Shown here piece after piece: positions 38,238 through 55,288 of a stretch of DNA of 64,000 nucleotides (its first letter is position 1; each line of letters begins with the position of its first letter). The position numbers and the translations under genes are program-made. This DNA comes from Opitutales bacterium. Its GTDB lineage: Bacteria; Verrucomicrobiota; Verrucomicrobiia; Opitutales; Seribacteraceae. A model generated the notes under the pieces. That model was not told where the DNA came from. It saw only the letters and a program-made list of their open reading frames with translations, and made no database searches. The DNA is taken from positions 1-64,000 of the forward strand of contig JAOHKZ010000003.1 in the NCBI GenBank assembly GCA_028101545.1, given 5' to 3'.

Positions 38238-38996
38238 ATGAATTGGTGGGGTAAGCTAATTGGAACAGGAGTGGGTATGTTTGGAGGACCAATAGGTGCG
38301 ATTGCCGGTGCTGCAATCGGTCACCTTTATGACGATGACGACATCACACCGCAGAACGAACAAAAAGCACGTATTCTTTACCTTGCTTATTTTTTTTCCT
38401 GTGCTGCAAAAATTGCAAAAGCAGATGGGCATATTTCTGAAGGAGAGATTCGAACGGTGGAGTCACTTATCCAAAGATTTGGTCTTGATGAAAAAAGGTC
38501 AGAGTTTGCTAAAAATGTTTTTCGAAAAGCAAAGACAAGCCGTCGTTCAATAGATGAAGATTTTAAGGAAGTAGGCCGCCTCATCGGATATGAAGCAACT
38601 GTTGGTCAGTCTTTTCTCGGAGGGCTTTTTGAGATTGTTTGGTCAAATGGAAAGAATCTGAATGAATTGCAGGTTCGTTATTTACTCCGTTGTGAAGAGC
38701 GCCTTAGACTTAAGCCTGGCATTGTGCAGACTTGGATTCGCGGAGGGTATGCCCCACCCTGCTACAATAGTTCTAATAATGAAATCTCCTTGGAGGAAGC
38801 TTACCAAATATTAGATTCAACTCCCCAAAGCACAGACTCAGAAATTAAGTCGAGATATAGAAAAAAAGCTGCAAATTTTCATCCAGATAAGCTTAGTAGC
38901 AAAAATTTACCTAAAGAGTTTACTTCATTTGCGAATGATCAATTGGCTAAAATTAATCATGCCCATGAGTTGATTTGTAAAAACCGTGGAATTTAA
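38238..38996 (+). CDS. djlA: DjlA-like J-domain co-chaperone with TerB domain
   Basis: A 252-aa protein with an N-terminal glycine-zipper-like hydrophobic segment (WWGKLIGTGVGMFGGPIGAI), a TerB-like helical domain (about 50-165, with ADGHISEGEIRTVESLIQRFG), and a C-terminal J domain (about 186-250) bearing the HPD motif in NFHPDKLSSKNLP. This is the domain order of DjlA, a membrane-anchored DnaK co-chaperone. The J domain should stimulate DnaK ATPase at the membrane. ATG start. Its stop overlaps the convergent ABC ATPase gene by 4 bp within a short hairpin. Confidence 0.88.
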   Translation: MNWWGKLIGTGVGMFGGPIGAIAGAAIGHLYDDDDITPQNEQKARILYLAYFFSCAAKIAKADGHISEGEIRTVESLIQRFGLDEKRSEFAKNVFRKAKTSRRSIDEDFKEVGRLIGYEATVGQSFLGGLFEIVWSNGKNLNELQVRYLLRCEERLRLKPGIVQTWIRGGYAPPCYNSSNNEISLEEAYQILDSTPQSTDSEIKSRYRKKAANFHPDKLSSKNLPKEFTSFANDQLAKINHAHELICKNRGI

Positions 38997-39002
38997 TCTA
39001 CG
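38985..39002. terminator. Short stop-spanning hairpin at the djlA/ABC ATPase junction
   Basis: CGTGGA at 38985-38990 pairs with TCTACG at 38997-39002 (6 bp, one G-T wobble), loop ATTTAA. Both stop codons of the overlapping convergent genes lie in the loop and right arm. No T-run, so a terminator role is tentative. Confidence 0.3.
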
Positions 39003-39670
39003 ATCAATCCATCATTCATAGAAATAAACCTATCGCATCTTCTAGCGAGTTGATTGTTATGAGTTACCAGTAATACTGCTAAATTTTGTTCTCTCGATAA
39101 ACGTTGCAGTAGATCAAACACAATTTCTGAATTTGCCGTATCTAAGTTACCAGTTGGTTCATCTGCCAAAATCAGAGAGGGTGAATTAATTAATGCTCTA
39201 GCGATAGCGACCCGTTGTTGTTCGCCTCCCGACAATTTATTGGCAAAGCGATCAAGCTTTTCACTAAGTCCTAACTGATTCAGTATCTGATCAGCACGCT
39301 CTAGTGCATCTTCTGAATCTTCACCTTTTTTTATAGCCGGCAGAGCTACATTTTCTCTTGCAGATAATTCTTTAATGAGAAAATGAAATTGAAAAATAAA
39401 TCCAATTTTTTCATTTCTTAGCTGGGTTTTTTGAATTTCGTTTAATTTAGATATCGAATTATTATTTATAATAATTTCCCCACTATCGGGTTGGTCGAGG
39501 AGACCAAGCAGATACATTAGTGTACTTTTCCCACATCCTGAAGGGCCTATTATAGAGGTAATTTCTCCTTGATTTGCATTAAATGAAACTCCTCGAAGAG
39601 CATGAACTTTTTCTTCACCCTCTAAAAAAGAATGAGTCAGATTACGAACTTGAAGTAGGGGAACATTCAT
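38993..39670 (-). CDS. ABC transporter ATPase (LolD/MacB type)
   Basis: A 225-aa ATPase of the LolD/MacB/FtsE group. Motifs are Walker A GPSGCGKSTLMYLLG near residue 41, a Q-loop in FIFQFHFLIKELSA, the signature LSGGEQQRVAIARAL near 145, Walker B LILADEPTGNLD, and VTHNNQLA with the H-loop His. It works with the FtsX-type permease encoded immediately upstream; the permease stop and this start share base 39670 region, showing tight coupling. Given the membrane-fusion and TolC-like genes in the same operon, it more likely powers MacAB-type export than lipoprotein release. Confidence 0.9.
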   Translation of the reverse strand: MNVPLLQVRNLTHSFLEGEEKVHALRGVSFNANQGEITSIIGPSGCGKSTLMYLLGLLDQPDSGEIIINNNSISKLNEIQKTQLRNEKIGFIFQFHFLIKELSARENVALPAIKKGEDSEDALERADQILNQLGLSEKLDRFANKLSGGEQQRVAIARALINSPSLILADEPTGNLDTANSEIVFDLLQRLSREQNLAVLLVTHNNQLARRCDRFISMNDGLIVD

Positions 39671-40917
39671 TAAATTGTTTCCCTAATGATTTTAGCCGGT
39701 TCAACTTTAGAAGCCCTGCGTGCTGGGATCCAGCTGGCAATACTAACAAATATTGTGGCAATTAAAATTGCCCAAATGTAATGAGATATATCCCAGTTAA
39801 CCACAAAACTATCGGTTGTAAAAATACCCCTTATCTCTAAAGGAATTTGCGAGACTAAATATGTACCTATTACACCAAATAAAACTCCGCCTACGATCCC
39901 TGCGATAAGAACAATCATTCCTTGCCAAAGAAAAATTGCTGAGATGTCTTTAGGTTCAAAACCAATAGATCGTAATATTGCCACATCACGAGTTTTTTCT
40001 ATTACCATGATGGCAAATACATTGAACATACCTAAGCCAGATAATAATAGAATAGTTGAAACTGTAATGGCCGAGGAAATACGTAAGGCCTTGAAAACAT
40101 CGAGCCAAACTTTTTCTCTTTCTTGCCAACTAACAGTTCTGTGTCCTAAGGTTTGTTGAATTTGAGAAGCAACACTCCTAGCATTATCTGGGTTGAACAT
40201 GCTCAATTGAAATACAGAACCGCCAAATCTTTTCCCTTCAATTGATCGGGCTGTGGCTAGAGATATGTAGATTCTTTTTTTATCAATTTCACTAACTCCT
40301 GTCTCGAAGATTCCAGAAACTCGCAATTGGAAATTTCCCTTTTTACCAACGATGTTGACCCTATCATTCACATGTAAATTTAATCTCTCAGCAACCCGGT
40401 TTCCAATAAATATACCCATTTCATCGCTTAAGAAATTCTCAATGGAACCATGCATCAATTGATTTTCGATCTCGGATGCAATCATATGGTCATTAATTCT
40501 TATTCCATGTGCCTGAACCGAGTAGTTTCTAGATTTTGTTTGAAGTGCTGCATTACATTCAAATACTTCGGAGATTCCATTAATTGATGGGAATTCGGAA
40601 AGAGCGTTTCGGATTTTCCCTGGATAGTCTACTCCATCGATATATTCAGCATCTTCTCGACTTTTAAATTGAAATTTAAATTGCCCGTCCTTTGAAATTT
40701 TATTTACAGTTCCCTTCATATCCTGAAACCGGTCAGATATTCTTATCGCTCCGTTTGTACCTAAAATAGTTCGTATGAAATAAGTTTGAAAACCTGAAGT
40801 TTGTGCCTGAGTGACAATAAAAAAAGAAATTCCAAAAATAATTCCAATGAGACTCATTGTCATTGCCCGTTTGCGAGAAAATACATACCGCAAGGCAAGT
40901 TGAAATGTAATGTTCAC
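39670..40917 (-). CDS. FtsX-family ABC permease (MacB/LolCE type)
   Basis: A 415-aa permease with one N-terminal membrane helix (about 18-38), a ~220-residue periplasmic domain of MacB/LolC type, and three C-terminal helices (near 280-300, 320-345, 375-395). The conserved FtsX region appears as VFAIMVIEKTRDVAILRSIGF and the C-terminal WIPARRASKVEPAKIIRE. It pairs with the ATPase that follows and the membrane-fusion protein upstream. ATPase and permease being separate proteins differs from E. coli MacB (fused) but is common elsewhere. ATG start. Confidence 0.85.
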   Translation of the reverse strand: MNITFQLALRYVFSRKRAMTMSLIGIIFGISFFIVTQAQTSGFQTYFIRTILGTNGAIRISDRFQDMKGTVNKISKDGQFKFQFKSREDAEYIDGVDYPGKIRNALSEFPSINGISEVFECNAALQTKSRNYSVQAHGIRINDHMIASEIENQLMHGSIENFLSDEMGIFIGNRVAERLNLHVNDRVNIVGKKGNFQLRVSGIFETGVSEIDKKRIYISLATARSIEGKRFGGSVFQLSMFNPDNARSVASQIQQTLGHRTVSWQEREKVWLDVFKALRISSAITVSTILLLSGLGMFNVFAIMVIEKTRDVAILRSIGFEPKDISAIFLWQGMIVLIAGIVGGVLFGVIGTYLVSQIPLEIRGIFTTDSFVVNWDISHYIWAILIATIFVSIASWIPARRASKVEPAKIIRETI

Positions 40918-40937
40918 TGAGAAAACCTATTCGTATT

Positions 40938-42062
40938 TTATTTAAGGTAGACTGGTTGTACAGTCTGACCATCTCTAAGGAGATGAGGCGTTTCAACAAT
41001 AATAATTTCTCCCTCTTTTAATCCGTCAAGAACTTCTACCGTTTGAAAATTTTTGGCACCAATTTTGATATTTTTAATAATGGCTTTGTTATTTTCTAAT
41101 ATAAAGACAGAATTTCCTATGACAGCTTTCGCTGGAATGATTAAGCTGTTTTTCTTTTGGCTTTTGATAATTTCCACGCTACCCGATGCTCCAGTTGGAA
41201 GTAGTCTTGTTGTATTATTCATTTTTAGATAAATAAACCTTCTGCCAGATTGCGGATTTACACTACTCGATAAACGGGATACATTTGCCTCAATTACCTC
41301 ATCACCAAGTGAGAAAAGACTAACTGCAGCTGGTAACCCTTCTTTTAAACCAAAGAAATCTTCTTCATTTAAGGACGCTTGAATTACTCGTTCATTAGAT
41401 ATGATTGTACCAATCAGTTGCCCAATTGAAACTAAATTACCTGGAGATACATATGATTCAATCAACTGACCTTTTAATGGACTGCGAATCGTCATTTTAT
41501 CGATTTGGGATATAAGGTTTTCAATATTTGTATTAAGATCAAATAATTTTTCATCATTATCGATTTTTTCCCGTTCAACTTGTGTCTTCAGTCGATTTAC
41601 ATGATTTCTCTTTCTGTTAAGGTCAGCTATCGAAATGTGTTCTCCTTCTGAGAATTTGGATAGTGCGTTAAGTTCTTCCTGTTCAATCTCTAATTCTAAG
41701 GCGTGAATCGATCCTTTTTTAATTTTTTTGATAAAATGATCCTTAGTTGTTAACGCTTGTTTCAAAGTTCTGTTAAGGTCCGTAATGTCAAGTTGAGCAA
41801 TAATTTGATTTTTCTCGACAAAGATTGTTTTCGCTAATGGTAACTTAGCTACCGTAGATACAATTCCCGGCAGGCTAGATTTTAGCTGGTGGGTTTGCTC
41901 TGCTAAAATATGAACATTGCCGGTTACAGAATCTTGGATTTCACCTTTTGTCACCATCCTACAGCGAACTTCTTGTCCAGAATTCCAAAAAAGCAAATAA
42001 AGGGCTAAGAATATTATTAATACTAGAGTAACAAAAACACTTTTCAAATTAGTAGTTTTCAT
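40938..42062 (-). CDS. Periplasmic membrane-fusion (adaptor) protein, HlyD/MacA family
   Basis: A 374-aa adaptor with an N-terminal signal anchor (about residues 8-27), a barrel-sandwich half-lipoyl motif (VRCRMVTKGEIQDSVTGNV), a coiled-coil hairpin of ~100 residues (about 110-190), the second lipoyl half IRSPLKGQLIESYVSPGNLV, and beta-barrel plus membrane-proximal domains to the end. It would connect the inner-membrane permease to the TolC-like channel encoded just upstream (4-bp gap). Family and role are clear; the cargo is not. Confidence 0.87.
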   Translation of the reverse strand: MKTTNLKSVFVTLVLIIFLALYLLFWNSGQEVRCRMVTKGEIQDSVTGNVHILAEQTHQLKSSLPGIVSTVAKLPLAKTIFVEKNQIIAQLDITDLNRTLKQALTTKDHFIKKIKKGSIHALELEIEQEELNALSKFSEGEHISIADLNRKRNHVNRLKTQVEREKIDNDEKLFDLNTNIENLISQIDKMTIRSPLKGQLIESYVSPGNLVSIGQLIGTIISNERVIQASLNEEDFFGLKEGLPAAVSLFSLGDEVIEANVSRLSSSVNPQSGRRFIYLKMNNTTRLLPTGASGSVEIIKSQKKNSLIIPAKAVIGNSVFILENNKAIIKNIKIGAKNFQTVEVLDGLKEGEIIIVETPHLLRDGQTVQPVYLK

Positions 42063-42066
42063 AAGT

Positions 42067-43437
42067 CTAAGAATTGGGAAATTTTATAGTCATTTCATAT
42101 TCCAACTTTAATTGGAGGTATGTAAATACAGATTTAAATAATCCTAGTTCAGCTTCTGTTAGAATTAACCTTGATGAAAGAAGATCATTAATTGTTATTT
42201 GGTTTTCGTTAAACTCAATCTGGCTTTTCTCGAAACGGTTTTTGGCAGTAGAGGCAAGTTTCCTGGATAATTTAATTTGATTAGCTAAATTATTTAACTG
42301 TGATTGAAGATTTTTAATTTTTAATCTTAATTCCCTAATACTGCTTTCAAGTTTAATTTCAAAGGTTCTTTTATGTGACAAAGCGAGAGACTTTTCAGCT
42401 TTGCTTCTTGAAGAGTCCCATAAATTCCAATTAGCCTCAATCCCTGCTAGCAAATTATTTCTTCTTACCGAATCAGGGTTATCTGGTAAATCTATTTGGT
42501 CTTGGTAAATTCCTGCAATCAAATTTAATTTTGGTTTTAGGGAAGCTTCAGCAATTTTAATTTGTTCCTTTTCTATTTGAATTAAATTTTTCAATTTTTC
42601 AACTTCTTCGGATGAATGAGAAGTGATCAACTGAGGTAAGTTTTTTCCAAATTCATGGTTCCTACATAGTTGGATGAAGTTATCGGGAATTGAAAGATCA
42701 ACGGCTTTGTAATATCCAGTTTCAAATTGAAAATAAGATTTCTCTAATTGTAAAATTCGCTCAGTTTCTGCAATTAGAATAGAATGTTCCAATTTTCTTA
42801 TTGTCGCCTCGCTTACTTCTAACTCCGTTCCTAAGCCTAATTCTTTTTTTTCGATTAATTTTGCTTCATTTTCTTCAGAAAACTTCAATGTTTCTTTTTC
42901 AAGTAGAAGTTTATAATTAAGATACAGTAGTTGCATGAAATCTGATTTCATTCGAATTATTAAATTCGATTTAACAGAATCTGACTTTTGAACCGCTAAT
43001 TCTCTAGATAATTCAGCAATTTTACTTTTCGCTCCCAAAGCCCCCCAATGATATAAAGGTTTCTTTGCTGATATTGAAGCAATTGTACGATAGCTCTGTG
43101 AGTAACCTTGCCCTGGACGATCTTCATGAATCGAATGACTCCCAATATTTAAACGAGCTGTAAATCCTTTTGCTGAGTTGGCAATTGTTTTCCTTGATTC
43201 AGCTTCATTAAGAAGCTCCTTAGACTCCTTAATCATTGGAGCATTAAGATCAAGCTTTTGCTCTATTTCTTTTAAGGCAGGAAAAAAGAATGCTATTTTT
43301 TCTTGTTGAAGAGAATCTACATTTTTATTTTGCGAAAAAGCTAATGAAATGCTCCACAAAAAAAATGTGAGAAGATAAATTATTGAGTAATTAGAATTCA
43401 AAAAACCAAGTATGATCAAAAATCTTCCATATCTCAA
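42067..43437 (-). CDS. TolC-family outer-membrane efflux protein
   Basis: A 456-aa TolC-like channel subunit with a signal peptide (IIYLLTFFLWSISLAFSQ, about residues 19-36) and two long alpha-helical repeats rich in Glu/Lys/Leu (about 60-210 and 265-440), as expected for the periplasmic tunnel. The WGALGAKSKIAELSRELAVQ and NLWDSSRSKAEKSLALSHK segments correspond in the two halves. No ATG precedes the signal peptide in frame; TTG 43437 or an internal TTG (near 43419 or 43401) must be used. It heads a four-gene export operon 32 bp after the cytochrome c gene and may be cotranscribed with the respiratory operon. Confidence 0.82.
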   Translation of the reverse strand: MRYGRFLIILGFLNSNYSIIYLLTFFLWSISLAFSQNKNVDSLQQEKIAFFFPALKEIEQKLDLNAPMIKESKELLNEAESRKTIANSAKGFTARLNIGSHSIHEDRPGQGYSQSYRTIASISAKKPLYHWGALGAKSKIAELSRELAVQKSDSVKSNLIIRMKSDFMQLLYLNYKLLLEKETLKFSEENEAKLIEKKELGLGTELEVSEATIRKLEHSILIAETERILQLEKSYFQFETGYYKAVDLSIPDNFIQLCRNHEFGKNLPQLITSHSSEEVEKLKNLIQIEKEQIKIAEASLKPKLNLIAGIYQDQIDLPDNPDSVRRNNLLAGIEANWNLWDSSRSKAEKSLALSHKRTFEIKLESSIRELRLKIKNLQSQLNNLANQIKLSRKLASTAKNRFEKSQIEFNENQITINDLLSSRLILTEAELGLFKSVFTYLQLKLEYEMTIKFPNS

Positions 43438-43469: not shown

Positions 43470-44141
43470 TTAGTCAGAAGTATTGGTAAGATAAAGAGAT
43501 TGAAGTGCACTTCCAATCCATTGTTCTTGTTGAGAGGATGATTCCTCCCTAACTCGAGCAACTTGGTCTTCGCTTACCTCGGAGGAATCGTTACCCCAAG
43601 CTTGCCTAACATAAGTTGATACATTCGCTATTTCTCGATCATTTATTGGAACAGCAGCCATGTTGACTGCTGCCGAAGTACCATATTTTTCTCCATTAAC
43701 TAAAATCTCACCTTTGAGGCCTTTTAAAATGACTTTGATTATTAAATCAGGGTCAGCAGAAACCCATTCTGAACCCGCTAATGGAGGATATTGGGTAGCA
43801 ATACCTAAGCCGTTAGCTTGATGACAAGATGCACAACGAACGGCAAATATTTTTTTCCCTGAATCGACCTTTCTTTCTAATCTCAGAATTTCCTTTTCTT
43901 CATCAGTTAACTCGACAACTTCTTTAGGTGGGTGAACTTGAAAACCATTAGTTGAATGTGCCAACTGTATGGAGCAAACAAAAATCAAGCAACCAAACAT
44001 AAAAACGAAAACAAGGGGAGCAATGAGAAAACCCTTGGTGGGGGGATGCTTTTCACGATTCAGTTCAGAATGAACCTCAACCATATCATCATCATTCATA
44101 ACCTTAATATCATCTAAGCTTTTATTTGTCTTATTGCTCAT
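43470..44141 (-). CDS. Membrane-anchored monohaem cytochrome c
   Basis: A 223-aa protein with a membrane anchor at about residues 38-60 and one class I cytochrome c domain: CASCH at 103-107, PPLAGSEWV, a candidate axial Met in AVNMAAVP at 161, and a final helix VSTYVRQAWGN. The domain closely resembles the second cytochrome domain of the CcoO-like protein upstream (GLG...PPL-x-(G/D)-S-(E/D)-WV, KG/HGLxGEI, WGN), so the two probably arose by duplication. Its start overlaps the upstream stop by ATGA. It likely receives electrons from ACIII or passes them to a separate oxidase; it may correspond functionally to CcoP, but has one haem only. Confidence 0.85.
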   Translation of the reverse strand: MSNKTNKSLDDIKVMNDDDMVEVHSELNREKHPPTKGFLIAPLVFVFMFGCLIFVCSIQLAHSTNGFQVHPPKEVVELTDEEKEILRLERKVDSGKKIFAVRCASCHQANGLGIATQYPPLAGSEWVSADPDLIIKVILKGLKGEILVNGEKYGTSAAVNMAAVPINDREIANVSTYVRQAWGNDSSEVSEDQVARVREESSSQQEQWIGSALQSLYLTNTSD

Positions 44142-45250
44142 TTGTCAGAATTTAGTTCTGCCGCAGTCCACATTTGCATCTGCCCCCGATCTTTGACGGA
44201 GTCCCTTACAATAGCAACTTCCTCTGGACTGATAGCGGACCCTGAGTTACCCCAGTCATTTCTAATGTAAGTGAGGACATCAGCAATTTGCTGATCAGTC
44301 AGTGAACCTGGTGGTACTCCTGGAGGTATCATAACACCATTATATTTCACTCCACTAACTTCGATTTCACCCATTAAGCCGTGCATGCTAATTTTTATAA
44401 TTCTTTCCTTGTCTCCGAGCACCCAATCAGAATCTACTAGTGGAGGGAATACACCAGGTTGACCTAAACCAGTGGGTTGATGGCAGGATACACACCCTCC
44501 CCCACCTGGGCCGACTTTTGTATAAATTTCTTTTCCGGATGAAATTTGGTCAGATAACCAAGAAGGTAATTTAGTTGAGGTCGTTGGGATTGTAACAAGT
44601 TCGGATGTAACCGGTTCCTCCTCCTCCACGAAACTCATCTCAGGTAATTCATAATCTTGGCGAAGTTCTTGAAGGTACGCCACGATACGATTTGCTTTAA
44701 TTCCTGGTTTTACGAATCTTGTTGTATTATCTTCTGAAATAATTTGTAAAGCCCCTGATACATTAGAATCCTTGATGTCATAAAGAAAAGGATTCGGAGG
44801 GCAAATCGATTTTTCAATTAAGGATTGTGGTTCGAAAAGGTGTTGATGCAACCATTCATCTGAATATTCTCTCAGTCCTATATTAGCTAAATCAGGACCT
44901 ACCCTAGTATTTCCAATATTTACTTCATTCTGCAAAATATAATCTCTTGCAACCGAAGGTCTTTTTCCCCACCCTCTCTCCACATCAAAACCAGCTTCGA
45001 CTAAGCGAACTTGTTGAGTATGGCATGTGGCGCAACCAAGGGATAAATATTCTTCAGCACCTTGTTGGGCAGCACCAGAAAACGCAATAGGGTACAAATC
45101 AGAATCTTCAGGTATACTTCCATCCTCGTTTAAAACAGATGAAGTAGGAGATAAATCTCCAAATTGTTTTCGGGCACCAACTACAAAGGCAAACCAAGCA
45201 ACTGCGAGTGTGGAAAAAATTCCAAATGAGAATTTAAAAATATTATTCAT
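44138..45250 (-). CDS. CcoO-like cytochrome c fused to a second cytochrome c domain; altered axial ligand
   Basis: A 370-aa protein with an N-terminal anchor (about 7-24). Residues 60-160 follow CcoO of cbb3 oxidases closely: LGCATCHTQQVR (haem at C73, C76, H77), ERGWGKRPSVARDY and TRVGPDLANIG. At the axial-ligand loop, where CcoO has Met followed by Pro, this protein has SICPPNPFL, with Cys at 150. A second cytochrome domain (about 235-350) has CVSCH at 253-257 and a plausible Met at 307. So it is a dihaem fusion. It overlaps both neighbours by 4 bp. Pairing with the ligand-poor CcoN-like subunit suggests the pair has diverged together. Confidence 0.85.
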   Translation of the reverse strand: MNNIFKFSFGIFSTLAVAWFAFVVGARKQFGDLSPTSSVLNEDGSIPEDSDLYPIAFSGAAQQGAEEYLSLGCATCHTQQVRLVEAGFDVERGWGKRPSVARDYILQNEVNIGNTRVGPDLANIGLREYSDEWLHQHLFEPQSLIEKSICPPNPFLYDIKDSNVSGALQIISEDNTTRFVKPGIKANRIVAYLQELRQDYELPEMSFVEEEEPVTSELVTIPTTSTKLPSWLSDQISSGKEIYTKVGPGGGGCVSCHQPTGLGQPGVFPPLVDSDWVLGDKERIIKISMHGLMGEIEVSGVKYNGVMIPPGVPPGSLTDQQIADVLTYIRNDWGNSGSAISPEEVAIVRDSVKDRGQMQMWTAAELNSDK

Positions 45251-46659
45251 ACTGTAGAAGCCTTGGATGCAAACTTTTTACTTCTTCCCGTATCTTCAAA
45301 GGGGTTAGGGACAAGAACCTTCCAAATATTAATTACAAACACCAATTGTGAAAACCCCAGTATGATAAATGAAATTTCGGTGATTAAGAAATAGGGTTGA
45401 ATCGAAGCAATGACAGAGTTAGCCCAATCAAGATCAGGTTGTTGAGCCAAAACACCGTGAGTTAAACCGCCAATCAAGTAAGCTAATAATAGCATCATGA
45501 CCCCCAAAGCTGAAGTCCAAAAGTGAAATGTTTTTGCTGCTATTGTAATCTCTTTACCAGTGATTTTAGGTAGCATGTAGTAAACAGCACCAAAAACGAT
45601 CATGCTGAAAAAGCCGTAAACTCTTTGATTAAAATGGAATTCATTTATGATAGAGAATTGAGTCAACTTGGCTACAGCGGGTAGCGAAAATATCACACCA
45701 ATATAACTAGAAATTGTGTAAGATAGAGTTCCAAATATAACAAATCTTAATGGTAAGCTGTTCCAGACTTTATCAATGTCTTTAAAAGCAGTTGCATGAA
45801 AGTTAGTTGAGGCAACTGCAATGGGGAAAATCATTGCGATACTCATAACTGTTCCAATAGCAGGTATCCACATTGGAACGGGTCCACCTTCTAAATGATG
45901 TACTACAGACCATGGTGCCAATGATGCAATACACCAAAATCCGAATATAGCCAGATAGTATTTATCGATGGGTTTACCAATAATTGAAGGAATTATGTAG
46001 TATGCAACTCCAAGGGCAAATGGTGTAAGCCAAAGCCAAATTAAATTTTGACCAAACCACATTGATAGAACACTCTGAACCGTTCCGGGAGAAGGATTAA
46101 TTTCAAGGCCATTCCAAGCGATTAAGAAAAGTGCAGGGAACCACAATATGGCAGCTAGTATGAACCATTGCGGGGCTATCGTGTCTGAGTACTTACGAGA
46201 GCGATGCAGTACAATAATCAAGCAAGTAATGATTGCGTATGAAATAAATAGAAGTGGCCAAATCTCCTTAGGCATTTCAAGCATCTCATGAGAATTCATG
46301 TGCCCATCTAAAATCCCTAACAATCCTAAAGTGATTCCAATATTCCAGATGAAACCAGCAACAAGTAGTAAAACACGGCCTCTTACTTCTGCTTGCGATA
46401 ACCTAGCGATAATCCAAATACTTATTGCAAAAATTGAATTTCCACCCCAACCATAAACAAAAGCATTTGCTTGTGCTATTTTAACTTTTCCGTAAGTAAA
46501 AAATTCAAAAGATGAAAGAAAAAAAGGATCTGTTAATTTAGCAGCGGCAATGTAAGCGAGGAGTGCGGCGGCAAGTAACCACAAACCAGCAGAGGCAACA
46601 AAAAAAGAAACCACCCATTTTGCAGATTTGTCTATCACTTGTTCGTCAGTAATTTTCAC
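45247..46659 (-). CDS. CcoN-like haem-copper oxidase subunit I homologue lacking several metal ligands
   Basis: A 470-aa, ~12-helix membrane protein homologous to CcoN of cbb3 oxidases: GWGGNSIFAIS in helix II, MWFGQNLIWLWLTP in helix VI, WSVVHHLEGGPVPMW in helix VII, RVYGFFSMIVFGAVYYMLP in helix X. Key differences from CcoN: the low-spin haem b His in helix II is Gln63; the CuB His in helix VI is Gln204; the second His of the helix X H-x-H is Asn344. The helix VII Tyr is Ala248. Only His254-His255 (CuB pair) and His342 (haem b3 ligand) remain. The codons (CAA, CAA, AAT) were read directly. Start is GTG. O2 reduction by the usual mechanism seems unlikely. Confidence 0.85.
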   Translation of the reverse strand: MKITDEQVIDKSAKWVVSFFVASAGLWLLAAALLAYIAAAKLTDPFFLSSFEFFTYGKVKIAQANAFVYGWGGNSIFAISIWIIARLSQAEVRGRVLLLVAGFIWNIGITLGLLGILDGHMNSHEMLEMPKEIWPLLFISYAIITCLIIVLHRSRKYSDTIAPQWFILAAILWFPALFLIAWNGLEINPSPGTVQSVLSMWFGQNLIWLWLTPFALGVAYYIIPSIIGKPIDKYYLAIFGFWCIASLAPWSVVHHLEGGPVPMWIPAIGTVMSIAMIFPIAVASTNFHATAFKDIDKVWNSLPLRFVIFGTLSYTISSYIGVIFSLPAVAKLTQFSIINEFHFNQRVYGFFSMIVFGAVYYMLPKITGKEITIAAKTFHFWTSALGVMMLLLAYLIGGLTHGVLAQQPDLDWANSVIASIQPYFLITEISFIILGFSQLVFVINIWKVLVPNPFEDTGRSKKFASKASTV

Positions 46660-46666
46660 GTTTAAG

Positions 46667-46966
46667 TTATTGGGCTTTATTTGGTTTGGGTCTGTAAGAA
46701 TCAGTTGTTTTTTTCATGGCTGATTCTAGGCTAGAATTTTTTTCGTTATGGTATTCGATAATTTTTGACTCAAGAGTAGTGGAATCGTTTTTGAACTCCA
46801 TAATTTTTACACTTCTTTGGTCAGAGATCATTTTCTTGGATACATTTTCATTTTTTTCATCAAAAAACATTTGAAATAAAAAATAAGCGGATACTAAAAT
46901 GATACCAATGATAAGTGAGAAGAATACACTACATCCATCTGCACGCTGTAATTTTGGGTCACTCAT
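46667..46966 (-). CDS. Small single-span membrane protein in the ACIII operon
   Basis: A 99-aa protein with one membrane helix (about residues 13-31, VFFSLIIGIILVSAYFLF) and a charged, Lys/Glu/Ser-rich C-terminal tail. I recognise no family. It overlaps the end of actF by 8 bp and ends 7 bp before the CcoN-like gene, so it is translated as part of the respiratory operon. It could be an accessory subunit of ACIII (some complexes have a small seventh subunit) or of the oxidase-like module, similar in size and topology to CcoQ/CcoS-type small subunits. Sequence alone does not decide. Confidence 0.7.
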   Translation of the reverse strand: MSDPKLQRADGCSVFFSLIIGIILVSAYFLFQMFFDEKNENVSKKMISDQRSVKIMEFKNDSTTLESKIIEYHNEKNSSLESAMKKTTDSYRPKPNKAQ

Positions 46967-48236
46967 GATGGTTTAAAGAATCTAAAATTCTTGGATCTCT
47001 TACTGGCACAACTTCTGCAATTTGTGAATTAAAACTTTTAATTACTACACGGGCACAAAGGCAACCGATTCCGATCAAAGAAGCCAACCCCCAGAATAAG
47101 TGCGGGCCAACCACAGGTCTTGCCTCATATCCAACATAAGCTCCGGGAACAATTTCGCGTCCGGGAATTATATTCCAATATAAGTCTAATAGATGAAAGG
47201 CCAAAATCCATATAGCGATAAAAGTTATGCGAGCTCCATTAATTTTGTTTTTATAGAATAATAAATACAGGAAAGGGAAGAAAAAGTGACCAAAGATTAG
47301 TCCCATACTTACCCAAAACCAGGCGGATGTTTCACCTGTATTTGGATTAATTTCACGGATATTATACCAAAAAGTCTCTTCTGGAATATTGGCACTGTAT
47401 ATTAGAAAGTACTGAGAAAAACTGATGTATGCCCAAAATACTGTGAATGCAAGTGATAGGCAGGCTAAATCGTATTGGTGTGCTTGTTTATAGATACCTT
47501 TAAGGCTCCCTTGTTTACATAAATAAAGACAACCCAAAATCGTAATTGCCAAGGCAGAACGCATTCCAGATGCAAAAAACCACACTCCGTACATAGTTGA
47601 AAACCATTGATATTCTAAACTCATGAATAAATCAAAAGCTCCAAATGTAAGGGACAATGCTGTAGCAGGAATTCCAACAGCAGAAATTTTCATACCTAAA
47701 TGAGTCCATTTGGGATCTCCATCTATATCCTGTGAAAAGGATACTTTACGCATCCAATAAGCGAGTCCAGAGAAAACTGCGAAATAAAATATCAAACGGA
47801 TACTAAAGAAATACAGATTTAAATACCCAGCTTTCTTTTGATGCAAGACATCACCCGCCACAGTAATACCATCAACTGTCGGACTGTCTGGGTTTATCCA
47901 TGACCAAAGAATGCCGGCATTTTCATGTCCAAAAAGAGCTACTAAAAGAAGAGGTAAAAAACACAAACCTAACCAAGGAAAGACAACTAAACCGTGTTCC
48001 TGTTGTCTTCGTACTACCGGCGACCACCTCGAGTTAAAAACCCGGAAAATCATAACAAGCATTAAAAGCCCTATCGCGATACTTAACCAAAAAGATCCAC
48101 CCCAGAGCCAACCTAGGAAAGGAGCATTATCGCCATTTGATAATCCAATTAGCAATCCAGCTATTCCAATTCCAATTCCCAAAACAGCTCCTGCAAGTAG
48201 TTTGATGTCAACATCTTTTGTGTTGATTTGACTCAT
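46959..48236 (-). CDS. actF: Alternative complex III subunit ActF (NrfD-like quinol-binding membrane subunit)
   Basis: A 425-aa polytopic protein (about ten helices) of the ActF/NrfD-like family, paralogous to ActC. Visible family stretches include FLGWLWGGSFWLSIAIG near residue 40, RSALAITILGCLYLC near 230, the FSQYFLIYSANIPEETFWY block near 272, and GHFFFPFLYLLFYKN. ACIII oxidises menaquinol and reduces cytochrome c or an oxidase directly; ActF lies beside ActC in the membrane. Its ATG overlaps the actE stop by ATGA. Confidence 0.88.
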   Translation of the reverse strand: MSQINTKDVDIKLLAGAVLGIGIGIAGLLIGLSNGDNAPFLGWLWGGSFWLSIAIGLLMLVMIFRVFNSRWSPVVRRQQEHGLVVFPWLGLCFLPLLLVALFGHENAGILWSWINPDSPTVDGITVAGDVLHQKKAGYLNLYFFSIRLIFYFAVFSGLAYWMRKVSFSQDIDGDPKWTHLGMKISAVGIPATALSLTFGAFDLFMSLEYQWFSTMYGVWFFASGMRSALAITILGCLYLCKQGSLKGIYKQAHQYDLACLSLAFTVFWAYISFSQYFLIYSANIPEETFWYNIREINPNTGETSAWFWVSMGLIFGHFFFPFLYLLFYKNKINGARITFIAIWILAFHLLDLYWNIIPGREIVPGAYVGYEARPVVGPHLFWGLASLIGIGCLCARVVIKSFNSQIAEVVPVRDPRILDSLNHHE

Positions 48237-48895
48237 GATTTCTTGCCTCCGTTATTGGTAGCCTCACTCACAAAACTTTGTAATGATCTAAGATAAAGTA
48301 CGATTGCCCAACGCTCTTGGGGGGTAAGTTTATCCTTTAAACCGAGCATGATACCAGAGGCTGAACCCATCGAGATGGCGTTATAAATTTGTCCATCGGA
48401 CCAGGGAGATGCAGATTCTAAGTATGTTCCAGATTGAGATGAATCAGATAAATTTCTTGGAGCAACTCCAAAATATGAAATAACGCCTTTACCGCTTCCA
48501 TATTTTCCATGACAAATAGCACAATGAATATCATATTTTTCTTTTCCTAAACGCATTAGGGCAAGATCGATATTAATTTCATCAGGAATCTTCTGAACCC
48601 AATCACCATTTTCCAATTTTCCAGTCTTCACAACTTCGCTTTGGAAACTAGGTTTTGTGGAGAACACATTGTCTTGGGTAATAAGGTTACCACGAATTGC
48701 AGTCCCACGAATAGGTAAACGATCGGCTTTACCATCAGTAAAAAAAGTATTTTTCGTTTGGCTTTTATATTTTGCTTGGCGATCCATATCCGGGAAAACT
48801 TCGATAGGAGTATTTTTAGATAAACTTCCTCGATATCCTAGTATTGAAACAATACTTACGACAATGATTATGAATGTAGGTATAAAATATCTCAC
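48233..48895 (-). CDS. actE: Alternative complex III subunit ActE (monohaem cytochrome c)
   Basis: A 220-aa membrane-anchored cytochrome c. An N-terminal hydrophobic segment (FIPTFIIIVVSIVSILGY) precedes a periplasmic domain with a single CxxCH, HCAICHGKYGSGKG, near residue 130, a candidate Met in GSASGIMLGLKDKL, and the final helix WAIVLYLRSLQ. The PIRGTAIRGNL segment before the haem is typical of ActE, which relays electrons from ActB/ActA toward the acceptor. Start is GTG 48895, directly abutting the actD stop codon; there is no better ATG. Confidence 0.88.
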   Translation of the reverse strand: MRYFIPTFIIIVVSIVSILGYRGSLSKNTPIEVFPDMDRQAKYKSQTKNTFFTDGKADRLPIRGTAIRGNLITQDNVFSTKPSFQSEVVKTGKLENGDWVQKIPDEINIDLALMRLGKEKYDIHCAICHGKYGSGKGVISYFGVAPRNLSDSSQSGTYLESASPWSDGQIYNAISMGSASGIMLGLKDKLTPQERWAIVLYLRSLQSFVSEATNNGGKKS

Positions 48896-49450
48896 TTAAG
48901 AATCTATAGGTTCGCGGATCATTGTAATTGATTTACCTCCAACGCTTTTGAGAAAATCTTTTGTTTCCTCATCATCAAATTTTGGATCCTCAATCTCAAT
49001 CACTATCATGTATTTATCATCTCCTGTTCTTCCAAATGAGGGATGTTCGAATACCGGATGGTTGTGTCTAGGTAAACGATTAAGGAAAAACATTCCAAAA
49101 AGGGTACCAAAAGCAGCAAAAAGAATGGTTAATTCGTAAAACACCGGAAAAGGATAAATTGGACTGAAGTACGGTTTACCGCCCACTATTAAAGGATAAT
49201 CGTATGCGTTCATAAACCAAACAATTAACATTCCAGTACAAAATCCAGTTATACCACCGAGAAGTGTAAAACATGGAACCTTGGAGCGCCCTACCCCCAT
49301 TTGAGCATCCAGTCCATGTACAGGTATGGGAGTGTAACATTCCCATTCTTTGTAACCTTCTTCACGTACTTTGCCTGCTGCATCATAAATTTCTTTAGCC
49401 GAATTAAATGTTGCTGCTAAACCGTATTTAATATCCATGAGCTTACTCAT
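48896..49450 (-). CDS. actD: Alternative complex III subunit ActD (DUF3341)
   Basis: A 184-aa membrane subunit of the DUF3341 family. It shows the family opening YGLAATFNSAKEIYDAAGKV and YTPIPVHGLDAQMG, two membrane helices (about 62-82 and 98-120), then a cytosolic C-terminal region with NRLPRHNHPVFEHPSF. In known ACIII structures ActD caps the membrane sector on the cytoplasmic side; no cofactor is bound. Located between actC and actE in the usual order A-B-C-D-E-F. Confidence 0.9.
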   Translation of the reverse strand: MSKLMDIKYGLAATFNSAKEIYDAAGKVREEGYKEWECYTPIPVHGLDAQMGVGRSKVPCFTLLGGITGFCTGMLIVWFMNAYDYPLIVGGKPYFSPIYPFPVFYELTILFAAFGTLFGMFFLNRLPRHNHPVFEHPSFGRTGDDKYMIVIEIEDPKFDDEETKDFLKSVGGKSITMIREPIDS

Positions 49451-49459
49451 AACTAAATA

Positions 49460-50881
49460 TTAATGCTTCCCTCCATGTGGGTCAGCGGCAGGCATTACAG
49501 ATTTCACTTCTGCCATTGGCATAAGAGGTAAAAACCTTAGAAATAAAAGAAAGAGAACTGAGAAAAAGCCAAAAGTGCCAAAGAAGGTGAAAATATCGAC
49601 CACTGTTGGAGAATAGTAACCCCAACTGGATGGAAGGAAATCTCGGGATAAAGTTGTATTAGCAATAACAAATCTTTCAAACCACATTCCAACATTAACA
49701 AATATGGAAATGATCCAAACGAGAGGTATGTTATTTTTAATTCCCTTAAACCAAAATAGTTGAGGACAGATTACATTACAGGAGATCATTATCCAATAAG
49801 CCCACCAATAATTTCCGAATGCTCGATTGATAAATGCAAACCCCTCATAAGAGTTTGCTCCATACCATGCGATGAAGAATTCCATTGCGTATGCATATCC
49901 AACCATACTTCCCGTAGCTAGTATGATTTTACACATATTATCTATGTGTTTTTCAGTGATCAGATCATGAAGGCGAAAGATTGCACGCAGTGGAAGCAGC
50001 AATGTTAATACCATACCAAAACCAGAGAAGATCGCACCTGCAACAAAGTAGGGAGGGAAAATTGTCGTATGCCAACCAGGTAGATTAGCAACTGCAAAGT
50101 CAAATGAAACGATCGTGTGTACGGAAAGAACTAGAGGAGTTGATAAACCTGCAAGCAAAAGGTAAGCCATTTCAAAATTCCTCCAATGATTATTTGCATT
50201 ACGCCAACCCATTGCTAAGAAACCATAAAAATACTTCCTCCATGTTTCCTTAGCGCGATCACGAATTACTGCAAGGTCAGGTATCATACCCATATACCAA
50301 AATAGTATGGAAACAGTGAAATAAGTAGAAACTGCGAATACATCCCATTCCAAGGGGCTTCGAAATTGTGGCCAAATTGCATTTGAGTTAGGTAGTGGAA
50401 ATAACCACCAAGCAAACCAAACTCGTCCCACATGAAAAAGCGGGAAAATACCAGCACACATAACCGCAAAGACGGTCATAGCTTCTGAAGCTCGATTGAT
50501 AGATGTTCTCCACTTTTGCTTAAGTAGGCATAAGATAGCTGAAATAAGAGTTCCTGCGTGTCCAATTCCAATCCAGAAAACAAAGTTAACAATAGCCCAA
50601 CCCCAATTAACAGGATTGCTGTTTCCCCACACTCCCACTCCAGTTGATACAAGATAAACAAGACCTAATCCTGTAAAACTTGCTATTCCCATTGCTGTGA
50701 TAAAACACCACCACCACCAAGTCGGTGTCTTTTGTTCGACAATTCCACAAATTTTTTCAGTTACCCAATGAAAGTTTCTTTTGTTAAGCACAAGAGGTTT
50801 CTCTTCCCACTTTGCAGGCTTAACTTTTTTCATTAATTCAGGAGAGATTGAATCTCCATGATCTGTTGCATTCACTGACAT
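49460..50881 (-). CDS. actC: Alternative complex III subunit ActC (NrfD/PsrC-like, quinol binding)
   Basis: A 473-aa polytopic protein (about ten helices) of the NrfD/PsrC family that carries the main quinol oxidation site of ACIII. Characteristic stretches are [24 protein letters not shown] near residue 108, [21 protein letters not shown] near 150, [17 protein letters not shown] near 262 and a [12 protein letters not shown] segment. The order and lengths match other ACIII operons. Its ATG is directly adjacent to the actB stop codon, without overlap. Confidence 0.94.
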
Positions 50882-53800
50882 CTAATGACTGCCCTCTTCG
50901 TGGGTATCGTGTTCACCATCATCATGATGTACAGGATGTGCTTTATCGTGATATTCTCTGGATGAATGAGGAGAAGATTCAAAATCGGGCATCAGAGGAT
51001 TTGGGTTTCGAACTTTTGCCAAAAAAGTAGTGCGAGGTCTAGTATTGAGGTATCCAAGAACAGAATAATCCCTAGGGTTGTTCTTTAATTTACTCACTTC
51101 ACTATTAGGATCTGAAATATCACCAAAAGAAATACTATCAGATGGACAAACCTGTTGGCATGCAGTTTTAATAGAACCGTCAGGCACCTTAATATCGGAT
51201 TCTTCCAATACCAAATCAGCACCATCTTTTCCGGTTTCAAGCATTGCATTTCTTTGTGCTTTGACTTTAACTTGTATTTTTGATTCTTGGATTCTTTGTA
51301 CACAATAAGTGCATTTTTCCATAACTCCACGCATCCGCACGGTAACATCAGGATTTTTACCCATTGCTGGTAAAGAATCATTCTCTTCTCCCAAAGGCCC
51401 CTTGTAAAGTTCATCAGTGCTGCGTTTATTCCAATCAAAAAAGTTGAACCTTCTAACTTTGTAAGGGCAATTATTAGCACAATATCTCGTACCCACACAA
51501 CGATTATAGGCCATAGCATTTAAGCCTTCTTCATCATGAACGGTAGCATTTACCGGACAAACTGTTTCACACGGTGCTGTTTCACAATGCATGCATGCAA
51601 CACCCTGAAAAGAAACTTGAACATCAGAAGGTAATTCCGCCCCATCTCTTTCGGTTGAACTGAAATACCTATCCAAGCGAATCCAATGCATCTCTCTACC
51701 ACGGAGTACTTGATCTTTTCCTACAATTGGAATGTTATTTTCACTCTGACAGGCAACTACGCAAGCACTGCAACCCGTACATTGGTTTAAATCAATTGCC
51801 ATTCCCCATTGGTGTAAACCAGGGGTTTCTGACTTTTCGTAATTATGGTCTGGATGCTCGTAGGAGGAGTTTCCTCTAGGCGTTGTTCTCGCTTTATAAG
51901 CAAGGTCAGCTTCTTGATCTTTGCCCCAAATTTTAGGTGAATGGGATTCTGCACCCATGTGGGAAGCAAATGCCTGATCGGAAATATACTCATTCGCATT
52001 GCCCTCCCTGACAATAGCTCTGCCTTCCATTGACCAATGTTCTTGAACATTCGCAAGTATTTTAAAATCACCAGTCGGTTCAAGAGAAACTTTAGATAAA
52101 ATACGGTTAAAATCTTTGTTGAAAAGAGGGTAAGAATTGAAACCAGTTCCTTTACCAACATTTCCAACTTTTTCTCTACCTAAACCAAGAGTTGAAATAA
52201 TGCTATAGTCTGCTAGTCCAGGTTGGACATATAGTGGTCCTGTGATTGATTGGTCCTCGCTTACAGTAAGTTTGACTATAGGTGCTTTTTGTTTCCCATG
52301 ATCAAAAACGGCTGCGTCAGGAGCTATCTGACCATTTTTGTTAAGCATGGTTGGTTTAGGCAATAAACCCAAATTAGGATATTTTTCTTCCAGTTCCTTG
52401 GCTAATACAGGGCTGATGAGCAATGCATTGTCCCAGGTTAATTTAGATATAGGATCTGGACACTCTTGCATCCAGCCATTATTAGCGAATCGTCCATCCC
52501 ATGCATGGAAATCAGGAATAAGTAAAACTTCCAAATTTTCTGACGAAGGTTTATCCGCAATTTTACCCTTAAATTGATCTAAAGAAGTAAGAGAGACTTT
52601 ATCGCTGTAAATACTTGGTTTCAATTTTTCAACACCTAGGCGAAGAAAATCCTCAAACGAGACACTCGTGGAACGTTTTTCCTGAAGGGATACTACAAAA
52701 TCATAGCTGGATTTATCAGAATCAATTAATTTTAGTAACAATTCGATATCTGAAACAGTGTCAAACAGGGGGGCAATCAGAGGTTGTACAGGTACGATCG
52801 TACTACCATCCCAAGTGATACCTTCATCCCAGGATTCTAGAAAATGAGATTGTCCTAAATGGAAATTACAAATCAGGGAAGTTTCGTTCAGAGAATGACC
52901 TAAATGCAATTTATTTTTGATCTTCTTAGATAAATCTGCCCAGTCATAGGAACTTGCAGTAAGTACGGGATTCCCACCAAGAAAAATTACACTTTCGATG
53001 TCTCCATCATTAATTTTTTTGAAAAAGTCTGATATGGAAGATGCAGAGTTATCTGTCTTTTGGTATTCGACTGTTGTTCCAATTGCTCCTAATTCTTGGT
53101 TAATAAGAAAGGCTAAGGCATGGACTTCAGTTGGAAGATGACTCCCTGGCAATATTACAGAATTCTTTGGTTTTTTACATATATCTTTAGCGCATTCTAA
53201 AACCCATTTGCTATGTTGTGCCTGAGATGAACCCCTATCATTTAATTTTGCAATTAGGGGCTCATCACCTTTTTTAAGTAGGGTTAAAATTTCGGCAGCA
53301 AGCAAGTTTGTAAAAGCTACAAACTGCGATGAGTCTAATCGTAATCTATGGTCTGCAACTCCACCTGTAATAGTTAAGTCGGACTCGACCGAATAAAGAC
53401 GATTCATTTTCTTGGCGTCATTAGCCGAGAGAACTTTGCGTCCTTTCATCAATGCCCGAGTGTTAGCCAAAGAATTGGGTTCACGATTCCCCAAGAAATC
53501 AGAATCTAAAGAAATAACTCTAGATGCTTTCCTGAGTTTAGGAGTTAATCTTAATCCATGATTGATACCAAAAGCTTTTCCTAAAGTATTTTCCGGGGAA
53601 CTTAAGTCTATTGATTCATGTTCAAACCATTCTATCCCTTTAGACTCAAGCTGTGTTTTCAGATGCTTGCGTGCTGTGGAGGATGATTTATCAGCCAATA
53701 CTGCAATTTTACCTTCTTTTACCCAGTTAGATACATCACCAAGCAATTGAGACGAGCTAGAAGATTTCCAGGTAGATGAATCTGATGAATCTCGGTGTAG

Positions 53801-54259
53801 CCCTGTCTTTGTACGATCGGGGTCATAAATATCTAATACGCTTGCTTGAGCATATATATTTGTGCCACCACCATAGGGAGTATAACTTGGATTCCCCTCT
53901 ACTTTGGTTGGGCGACCGCTGTGGCTTTCCACTATCAAGGGAATGAAACCATGAGCAGAAGGCATAGATGTCGCGTAAAAATTTGGAACGCCAGGGATTA
54001 ATTCTTCAGGACTTTTTCCGTAAGGTAGAATTGTGTGTTCGGGTCGCCTGCAACCTGTCATCCCAAGACCGGCAAGGCCAAAAGATGCGGCCATTAATTT
54101 AACAAAACCTCTTCTTTGAACACCTTCGAGCATACTTGCACCTTCAGGGAATTCTCTTTCAACCCAAGTTTTAAAGCTAGGCGTCTCGGCCAAGTCATCA
54201 AGGCTTTTCCAATAACGTTTTCCGCTATCTAGGGTGTGATCGGGGATTTCTTTTATCAT
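50882..54259 (-). CDS. actB: Alternative complex III subunit ActB (molybdopterin-oxidoreductase-like plus iron-sulfur domain)
   Basis: The large periplasmic ACIII subunit, 1125 aa. A twin-arginine signal (RR at 49-50, then FVKLMAASFGLAGLGMTGC with a lipobox-like Cys70) indicates folded export. The first ~720 residues resemble a molybdopterin oxidoreductase without cofactor. The C-terminal part binds Fe-S clusters: NQCTGCSACVVACQSENN, CMHCETAPCETVCPVNA, CVGTRYCANNCPYK, CTYCVQR and CQQVCPSDS. The extreme C-terminus is His/Asp-rich (HPVHHDDGEHDTHEEGSH), possibly metal-binding. ATG 54259 overlaps the actA stop (ATGA) and is preferred over TTG 54268. Confidence 0.95.
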   Translation of the reverse strand: MIKEIPDHTLDSGKRYWKSLDDLAETPSFKTWVEREFPEGASMLEGVQRRGFVKLMAASFGLAGLGMTGCRRPEHTILPYGKSPEELIPGVPNFYATSMPSAHGFIPLIVESHSGRPTKVEGNPSYTPYGGGTNIYAQASVLDIYDPDRTKTGLHRDSSDSSTWKSSSSSQLLGDVSNWVKEGKIAVLADKSSSTARKHLKTQLESKGIEWFEHESIDLSSPENTLGKAFGINHGLRLTPKLRKASRVISLDSDFLGNREPNSLANTRALMKGRKVLSANDAKKMNRLYSVESDLTITGGVADHRLRLDSSQFVAFTNLLAAEILTLLKKGDEPLIAKLNDRGSSQAQHSKWVLECAKDICKKPKNSVILPGSHLPTEVHALAFLINQELGAIGTTVEYQKTDNSASSISDFFKKINDGDIESVIFLGGNPVLTASSYDWADLSKKIKNKLHLGHSLNETSLICNFHLGQSHFLESWDEGITWDGSTIVPVQPLIAPLFDTVSDIELLLKLIDSDKSSYDFVVSLQEKRSTSVSFEDFLRLGVEKLKPSIYSDKVSLTSLDQFKGKIADKPSSENLEVLLIPDFHAWDGRFANNGWMQECPDPISKLTWDNALLISPVLAKELEEKYPNLGLLPKPTMLNKNGQIAPDAAVFDHGKQKAPIVKLTVSEDQSITGPLYVQPGLADYSIISTLGLGREKVGNVGKGTGFNSYPLFNKDFNRILSKVSLEPTGDFKILANVQEHWSMEGRAIVREGNANEYISDQAFASHMGAESHSPKIWGKDQEADLAYKARTTPRGNSSYEHPDHNYEKSETPGLHQWGMAIDLNQCTGCSACVVACQSENNIPIVGKDQVLRGREMHWIRLDRYFSSTERDGAELPSDVQVSFQGVACMHCETAPCETVCPVNATVHDEEGLNAMAYNRCVGTRYCANNCPYKVRRFNFFDWNKRSTDELYKGPLGEENDSLPAMGKNPDVTVRMRGVMEKCTYCVQRIQESKIQVKVKAQRNAMLETGKDGADLVLEESDIKVPDGSIKTACQQVCPSDSISFGDISDPNSEVSKLKNNPRDYSVLGYLNTRPRTTFLAKVRNPNPLMPDFESSPHSSREYHDKAHPVHHDDGEHDTHEEGSH

Positions 54260-54993
54260 CGGTGGCAACCTGTACAGCTAAGCGGTGGATTAACACCCCA
54301 ATTGTGTTTCATATCTAAACCTGAGTGAATGGAGTCAAAAGTTGAATTGTTAGAATCTGTTTGTTTCGTCCAGCTCAAGTTAGTCACTTCATTCATCGGG
54401 CGAAGGGAATCTTCAGGGTTACGGTGGCAATCAAGGCAAAATGCCATACTTAAAGGTTTATCATGATGAACTACTTCCATTTGGTCAATCCTGCCATGGC
54501 ATTCAACACAACTAACCCCGCGATTAACATGAATGGCATGGTTGAAGTAAACATAGTCTGGCGTTTTGTGAATACGCACCCAAGGAACTGAAGGTCCTGT
54601 GGTAAGTATACCGTCACCGTTCAAATCTTCACCTTCTGAAAGTTTACCATCTTTGTTTGAGTCCTCTCCGAAATAGGAATCTCTGATAGGTGCAAGGAGA
54701 GGAGAATCCGCTTTGACATTTTTGTGGCAAGACATACAGACATTAGCAGATGGAATATTGGCGTGGGGCGATTTGTCTGCACCATGGTGACAGTAGCGAC
54801 AATCTATGCCAAGTTCACCTGCATGAAACTCATGATTATATGATACTGGTTGAGTGGGTTGGTAACCAACTCGGGTGTATTTTGGCGTGGCGTAATAATT
54901 AATTCCAGCCGTTACAGCACCACCAATTAATCCGAGTGCAAAAATTACTTTTACTGGAATCGTGTTGGTCCATCTTGGGAAAAGGTTTCTCAT
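54256..54993 (-). CDS. actA: Alternative complex III subunit ActA (pentahaem cytochrome c) with EF-hand-like insert
   Basis: A 245-aa periplasmic multihaem cytochrome anchored by one N-terminal helix (about 12-31, IPVKVIFALGLIGGAVTAG). Five CxxCH motifs are visible at residues 65-69, 86-90, 162-166, 186-190 and 240-244, the number normal for ActA. Between haems 2 and 3 is an insert with DSNKDGKLSEGE (111-122), a perfect EF-hand calcium loop, followed at once by DLNGDGIL. I chose ATG 54993 (MRNLFPRW) over TTG 55035, since the extra 14 residues are not family-like. It is the first gene of the ACIII operon. Confidence 0.93.
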   Translation of the reverse strand: MRNLFPRWTNTIPVKVIFALGLIGGAVTAGINYYATPKYTRVGYQPTQPVSYNHEFHAGELGIDCRYCHHGADKSPHANIPSANVCMSCHKNVKADSPLLAPIRDSYFGEDSNKDGKLSEGEDLNGDGILTTGPSVPWVRIHKTPDYVYFNHAIHVNRGVSCVECHGRIDQMEVVHHDKPLSMAFCLDCHRNPEDSLRPMNEVTNLSWTKQTDSNNSTFDSIHSGLDMKHNWGVNPPLSCTGCHR

Positions 54994-55288
54994 GCGATAA
55001 GAACTATGATTTAAAGAAACGATTTCTCGCCTCAAAAATGAAGGATAGTTTCATTAAGACACTGGAAACATTCCAATCAAGAAAGGGAGATTTCTTGTAT
55101 GGGCAAAAAGAAAAAACTGTAGTGGGCTTAAACACTCTTTCCACGCTACGAATTCGTGCTGTACCTTTCAATAGCAAACATTTTGATCGCCAACTATTAA
55201 TAAAGCTTAATTTGACTCATTAGTAAAACTTAACAAAATCAAATCTTGCTTTATTTAAAACAATCAACGAAATGCTGATGTAATAGAT
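54994..55288. other. 295-bp divergent intergenic region between actA and the FAD oxidoreductase
   Basis: This region must hold the promoters of the respiratory operon (minus) and the FAD oxidoreductase gene (plus). A 61-codon plus-strand frame (55038-55223) lies within it but has no recognisable family or ribosome-binding site, so I do not annotate it as a gene. I see no riboswitch, tRNA or strong inverted repeat. Confidence 0.5.

Follow-up and report, generated by a model that had tools for sequence, protein, structure and literature searches.

Haem-copper oxidase subunit I is among the best studied of enzyme cores, and we know of no described family in which it is conserved after losing its metal sites; the open-access papers searched contained no such case. 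What, then, is the role of a subunit I gene that stands beside the alternative complex III (ACIII) genes of an Opitutales bacterium with several of its metal ligands replaced? The gene, here called N, lies in the window, a stretch of 64,000 nucleotides (contig JAOHKZ010000003.1, positions 1 to 64,000). On the minus strand of the window, the multihaem cytochrome c ActA (54256..55035) is followed by ActB, an iron-sulfur/molybdopterin-type fusion (50882..54268), the NrfD-like ActC (49460..50881), ActD (PF11821; 48896..49450), the monohaem cytochrome c ActE (48233..48895) and an ActF-like ACIII membrane subunit (46959..48236), which has no Pfam match and was assigned by position and synteny. The actABCDEF genes are adjacent and in order. 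Downstream on the same strand are x99, a small one-TM protein without a Pfam match (46667..46966); N, a CcoN-like subunit I that lacks the low-spin haem ligands (45247..46659); O, a CcoO/FixO-like c-type cytochrome that has two CxxCH motifs and, at its C-terminus, a further cytochrome c domain (44138..45250); and P, a membrane-anchored, CcoP-like monohaem c-type cytochrome (43470..44141). The N/O and O/P junctions overlap by ATGA. The same gene order, including a small protein in the x99 position, recurs across the order, and actABCDEF-x-N-O-P is syntenic through order and class. Genes for TolC-like, membrane-fusion and ABC exporter proteins come after P (38993-43437), and TolC-like and fusion-type genes follow P in loci L058-L060 of the same family as well. 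In family f29 (L258, L260, L261, L264, L265, L288 and L289), an extra monohaem cytochrome gene is located between actF and N.

N is a 470 aa ORF with a GTG start and zero internal stops, and it belongs to the COX1/CcoN family, being a C-family haem-copper subunit I. HMMER aligned it with the solved CcoN chains 9g6b, 3mk7 and 8smr (E down to 2e-33). In a MAFFT alignment with P. stutzeri CcoN, Gln63 occupies the position of the TM2 ligand of haem b, Gln204 that of the TM6 ligand of CuB, Ala248 that of the tyrosine and Asn344 that of the TM10 ligand of haem b; His254 and His255 fall on CuB positions and His342 on that of haem b3. The first dozen residues of the P. stutzeri row served as an alignment guide only. 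The seven site columns (haem b TM2, CuB TM6, Tyr, CuB, CuB, b3, haem b TM10) read Q-Q-A-H-H-H-N, with the codons CAA for Q63 and Q204, GCA for A248, CAT for H254, H255 and H342, and AAT for N344. The register that a sequence-only reading of the window had proposed by eye was thereby reproduced, and the four replacements and three remaining histidines that it named held on checking the codons. That reading had also considered that histidines elsewhere in the protein might fill the haem b and CuB sites. The complete list (His120, 124, 152, 254, 255, 288, 342, 379 and 401) offers none, as there is no substitute His for the low-spin haem in TM2 and none further in TM10. The structure prediction it proposed gave a CcoN fold: the AF2 model has 12 TM helices (pLDDT 71, pTM 0.79, with residues 252-277 after TM7 at low confidence), and the best Foldseek matches were CcoN chains with TM-scores of 0.82-0.85.

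N thus has the 12-TM fold of a cbb3 core, nearest to CcoN among haem-copper oxidases, in a predicted model of moderate confidence, and His342 stands at the position of the high-spin haem b3 ligand in TM10, a residue gone from most other degenerate lineages. The bis-His low-spin haem b site of TM2 and TM10 is absent, as is the set of three CuB histidines with a cross-linked TM7 tyrosine. The haem c subunits of the CcoO and CcoP types are co-encoded, though the O haem has Cys150 where Met is expected. An identity as NO reductase was rejected on the low-spin haem site and on overall similarity: the bis-His low-spin haem that cNOR and eNOR combine with a Glu-ligated non-haem Fe is lost, and NOR matches to N were weaker than the best match, CcoN.

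Conservation of N was examined with 25 related loci taken from named Opitutales/Opitutia/Verrucomicrobia records. In a 22-row alignment, Q63, Q204, A248, N344, H255 and H342 were invariant, so that the Gln/Gln/Asn pattern beside actABCDEF, which the sequence-only reading had proposed to test for conservation, is conserved. H254 was retained in more than 90% of rows (Asn in L026), and the TM10 block 337-348 was invariant in the window clade. The pairwise dN/dS of N was 0.038 against L004 and 0.023 against L025; in both comparisons, O and P had a higher dN than N. The earlier view that the gene is intact and no decaying pseudogene was borne out by the open ORF, the low dN/dS and the orthologues, and a sequencing error, the other explanation it had allowed for, was ruled out together with a pseudogene because orthologues in genus and family carry the same pattern. 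Full-ligand homologues do occur in other families of the order, with ccoS; they are orthologues of other lineages and hence give no sign of an error in the window copy. Between the window and L004, dS was 0.4-0.8 across x99-N-O and 1.5 for P (genes within 43470-46966), and at or near saturation for the act genes (46959-54268), an unevenness that suggests recombination inside the operon.

To place this pattern in a wider frame, 165 N proteins of the order were compared with P. stutzeri CcoN, and a protein was called degenerate if three or more of the seven positions differed. All six histidines and the tyrosine were present in 60, 101 were degenerate and four were partial. The site strings of degenerate members vary by lineage, and many, such as SQAGDQN and RQGRKLQ, contain no plausible ligand set. 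Even lineages left with few or no ligands retain N-O-P and the CxxCH motifs, and L058 and L059, from g3, a sister genus within the window family, keep the operon although H254, H255 and H342 are gone too. The columns lost are mostly ligand and pocket residues; loop and helix-packing positions are kept, among them G57, G258, P260, P262, W264 and F335, and full-length N ORFs occur across many families and the whole class. In the class, families f36, f39 and f40 are intact and f29, f30, f31, f33, f35, f37 and f38 degenerate; both states coexist within families f10, f13, f19 and f24 and within genus g56. Genome G059 encodes two copies (L177, L180): a degenerate N of the ACIII-linked type and an intact but divergent one, for which the ccoS match is weak. 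The tree, a quick one with long branches on which the loss count is approximate, requires at least four changes in the order and at least five when the class is included, all forced by the starred branches. Judged from these alignments, ligand loss is recurrent and class-wide. The flanks of many loci spanned 1.5-2.5 kb, and some were ended by contig ends.

The gene ccoS provided a second marker. CcoS takes part in inserting the cofactors of cbb3 oxidases. In intact loci its gene lies between the small x99-type protein and N, and its members are FixS/CcoS by both Pfam and NCBIfam; it is absent from the window locus, and no convincing match was found in the genomes of family f1. It precedes N in 60/60 full-ligand loci of the order and is missing from 100 of the 101 degenerate ones, the sole full-ligand row without it in the count being the P. 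stutzeri reference itself. The exception, L066, combines a degenerate N with a weakly matching, partly decayed ccoS. Since many rows are close kin, independent events are the fair measure: all five independent pairs were concordant with ccoS in nearly every random pairing, five being a number that cannot give p < 0.05, and ccoS is gone at each of the at least five ligand losses. Genome-wide in 57 relatives, FixS matches above the curated cut-off occurred only in intact-N genomes, each right before N; G044, whose N is ended by a contig end and intact in its TM2 part, was counted among these. Given the role of CcoS, the parallel disappearance of its gene and of the ligands suggests that N is no longer supplied with cofactors. 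A further maturation gene, ccoG, was uninformative, as it tracks separate CcoNO operons and not the ACIII-linked N.

The haem c subunits have also changed. In the window O, Cys150 stands in place of the distal Met of the CcoO haem and is likely the distal ligand of the O haem c. The P. stutzeri CcoO row was used as an alignment guide only. This position holds Met in 72/72 intact rows, but roughly half of the degenerate rows have Cys, His, Lys or some other residue there. The change to Cys took place in the window family and, it seems, a second time in class family f29; other lineages have His or Lys, and Met is never replaced in intact-ligand operons. CxxCH is kept by O in the examined loci and by P as well, and P mostly retains its Met, the misses of a simple pattern count still holding Met on reading. 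A Cys- or His-ligated O haem would be expected to be low in potential and a poor wire to caa3.

Nearly all degenerate-N genomes encode another haem-copper oxidase. The source genome, which is 57% complete, carries a caa3-type oxidase on contig 15, separate from the window contig. A ctaD gene follows N-O-P by 1.6-2.6 kb in 17/23 degenerate class genomes examined, and the gene layout is alike in G497, a genome whose N is intact; no aa3 genes were seen in the ACIII operon within the order. Where a degenerate-N genome is 90% complete or more, it encodes another PF00115 protein, save in three fragmented MAGs (G071, G201 and G272). In G045, G110 and G169 (97-99% complete), an intact N is the sole PF00115 protein.

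In verrucomicrobial methanotrophs, ACIII genes are reported to neighbour those of a cbb3-type oxidase (PMC6688271; review PMC8498564), which the Kam1 paper ties to high O2 affinity (PMC6688271), and in Methylacidiphilum caldifontis both aa3 and cbb3 genes adjoin ACIII (PMC11102522). The seven site columns of N in G404, presumed to be Methylacidiphilum kamchatkense Kam1, read SESSHFV (L279; L322 at 12084-13529), which means that all but possibly one of the site residues are lost; the N of G315, presumed M. fumariolicum SolV, has the same motifs (L342). The order in G404 is act-x-N-O-P-ctaD-coxIII-CuA subunit. Its other PF00115 proteins, typed by motifs and neighbours, are two A-type, one ba3-like and one NorB-like, so that no working cbb3 core was found among the PF00115 proteins of presumed Kam1. 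The ACIII-linked 'cbb3 oxidase' of Kam1 and SolV, with the genomes so presumed, is very probably a disarmed N and no oxidase.

Taken together, N is almost certainly not an O2 reductase, and it probably serves as a scaffold within an ACIII assembly, because all but the active site is conserved and because some lineages lack any ligand. It would be a former cbb3 core that has lost O2 reduction and that, as a membrane scaffold, keeps the c-type cytochromes O and P in place beside ACIII. Menaquinol electrons would leave ACIII via the c haems, most likely that of P and perhaps that of O, and a separate aa3/caa3 oxidase would use them to reduce O2; on gene order and the other oxidases present, this last transfer is a hypothesis with slightly less than even chances. 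We infer that N would be in physical complex with ACIII, that electrons would take this route and that haem b and CuB would be absent from N. An ex-oxidase core kept as an ACIII scaffold for c cytochromes, with O2 reduced by aa3/caa3, is on balance the likely overall explanation. Against it count the retained histidines of the window clade, the low potential expected of the O haem, the absence of an operon aa3 in the order and the incompleteness of the source genome. The sequence-only reading had already suggested a repurposed subunit tied to ACIII, and this view is supported. Among its three options, a scaffold or a partner inside an ACIII assembly is favoured: in sister lineages with few or no ligands left, the gene persists together with its c-haem subunits and the order of the operon, a pattern at odds with an enzyme that depends on a metal site here. 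Its statement that half of the ligands are lost describes the window clade, but not the lineages that have lost nearly all. The recurrent class-wide loss, the loss of ccoS, Cys150 of O and the downstream aa3 of other class members go beyond it.

The retained histidines could alternatively mean that N of the window clade keeps a modified site, in which H342 would bind one high-spin haem b and H254, H255 and Q204 a metal. Such a site would draw electrons directly from a c haem and would serve in sensing or in the conversion of a different substrate (NO, H2O2 or sulfur compounds). A residual haem or metal site may exist in this clade, considering the conservation of its three histidines and of the TM10 block; the invariance of Q63, Q204, A248 and N344 implies an altered pocket under selection, and the O haem c has gained a likely Cys ligand. 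However, the sister genus lost these histidines yet keeps the operon, a misfit with any enzyme needing the metal site, and one clade member has Asn at H254, both of which weaken the three histidines as proof of a working site. With ccoS absent and no electron entry via a low-spin haem, a modified site appears unlikely. That N is an ordinary oxidase subunit drawing its ligands from Gln, Asn, Cys or shifted His could appeal to the CcoN fold and to the polarity of Gln and Asn, but is strongly disfavoured and barely credible, since TM2 and TM10 contain no spare His, many relatives have no plausible ligand, the tyrosine is lost too and ccoS went in step.

Repeated loss of function, with ligand residues drifting differently in each lineage, would also be expected of a decaying remnant kept by co-transcription with the act genes and heading for loss. 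This is very improbable in view of a dN/dS of 0.02-0.04, the lower dN of N than of O and P, the full-length ORFs across families and class and the CxxCH motifs of O and P. Finally, N-O-P might serve a branch other than aa3, passing ACIII electrons to periplasmic acceptors or other reductases. A presumably low-potential Cys- or His-ligated O haem, found in several degenerate lineages and in no intact one, would suit such a role, as would the nos cluster inside the act cluster of M. caldifontis (PMC11102522). Nevertheless, in many class genomes the genes immediately after N-O-P encode aa3, and no other reductase was seen to be consistently linked to N-O-P, which makes this branch rather improbable.

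The scaffold reading would reveal how a respiratory enzyme can become a structural component of a different complex, and the order and class offer a natural series of intact and dismantled oxidase cores. In its broadest form, it would mean that the haem-copper core turned at least five times into a redox-centre-free scaffold in an assembly of ACIII, a dead cbb3 core with c haems, and aa3, and that some proteins of Verrucomicrobiota reported as cbb3 oxidases are no oxidases at all; we regard the chances of this as evenly balanced. Caution is warranted where such genes are counted as high-affinity oxidases, as was done for cultivated methanotrophs.

Three known systems come closest to the locus. 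With the CcoN/CcoO/CcoP of cbb3 oxidases it shares the fold, the subunit set, the N-O-P order, the CcoO motif CHTQQVR and the haem c motifs, and orthologues that occupy this operon position with all ligands present come with ccoS. Unlike them, the window N has no bis-His low-spin site, two of three CuB histidines and no tyrosine, ccoS is missing, Met of the O haem is replaced by Cys, and many relatives are ligand-free. In the supercomplexes of ACIII with aa3/caa3 of Flavobacterium johnsoniae and Rhodothermus marinus, actABCDEF is likewise followed by oxidase-type genes, with monohaem cytochromes as the electron exit; here, by contrast, an oxidase-like module with an incomplete site comes after actF, before or apart from a working aa3. 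The ACIII-linked 'cbb3' of methanotrophs (PMC8498564, PMC6688271) shares the operon position and the protein family, but it was published as a working high-affinity oxidase, and its N reads SESSHFV.
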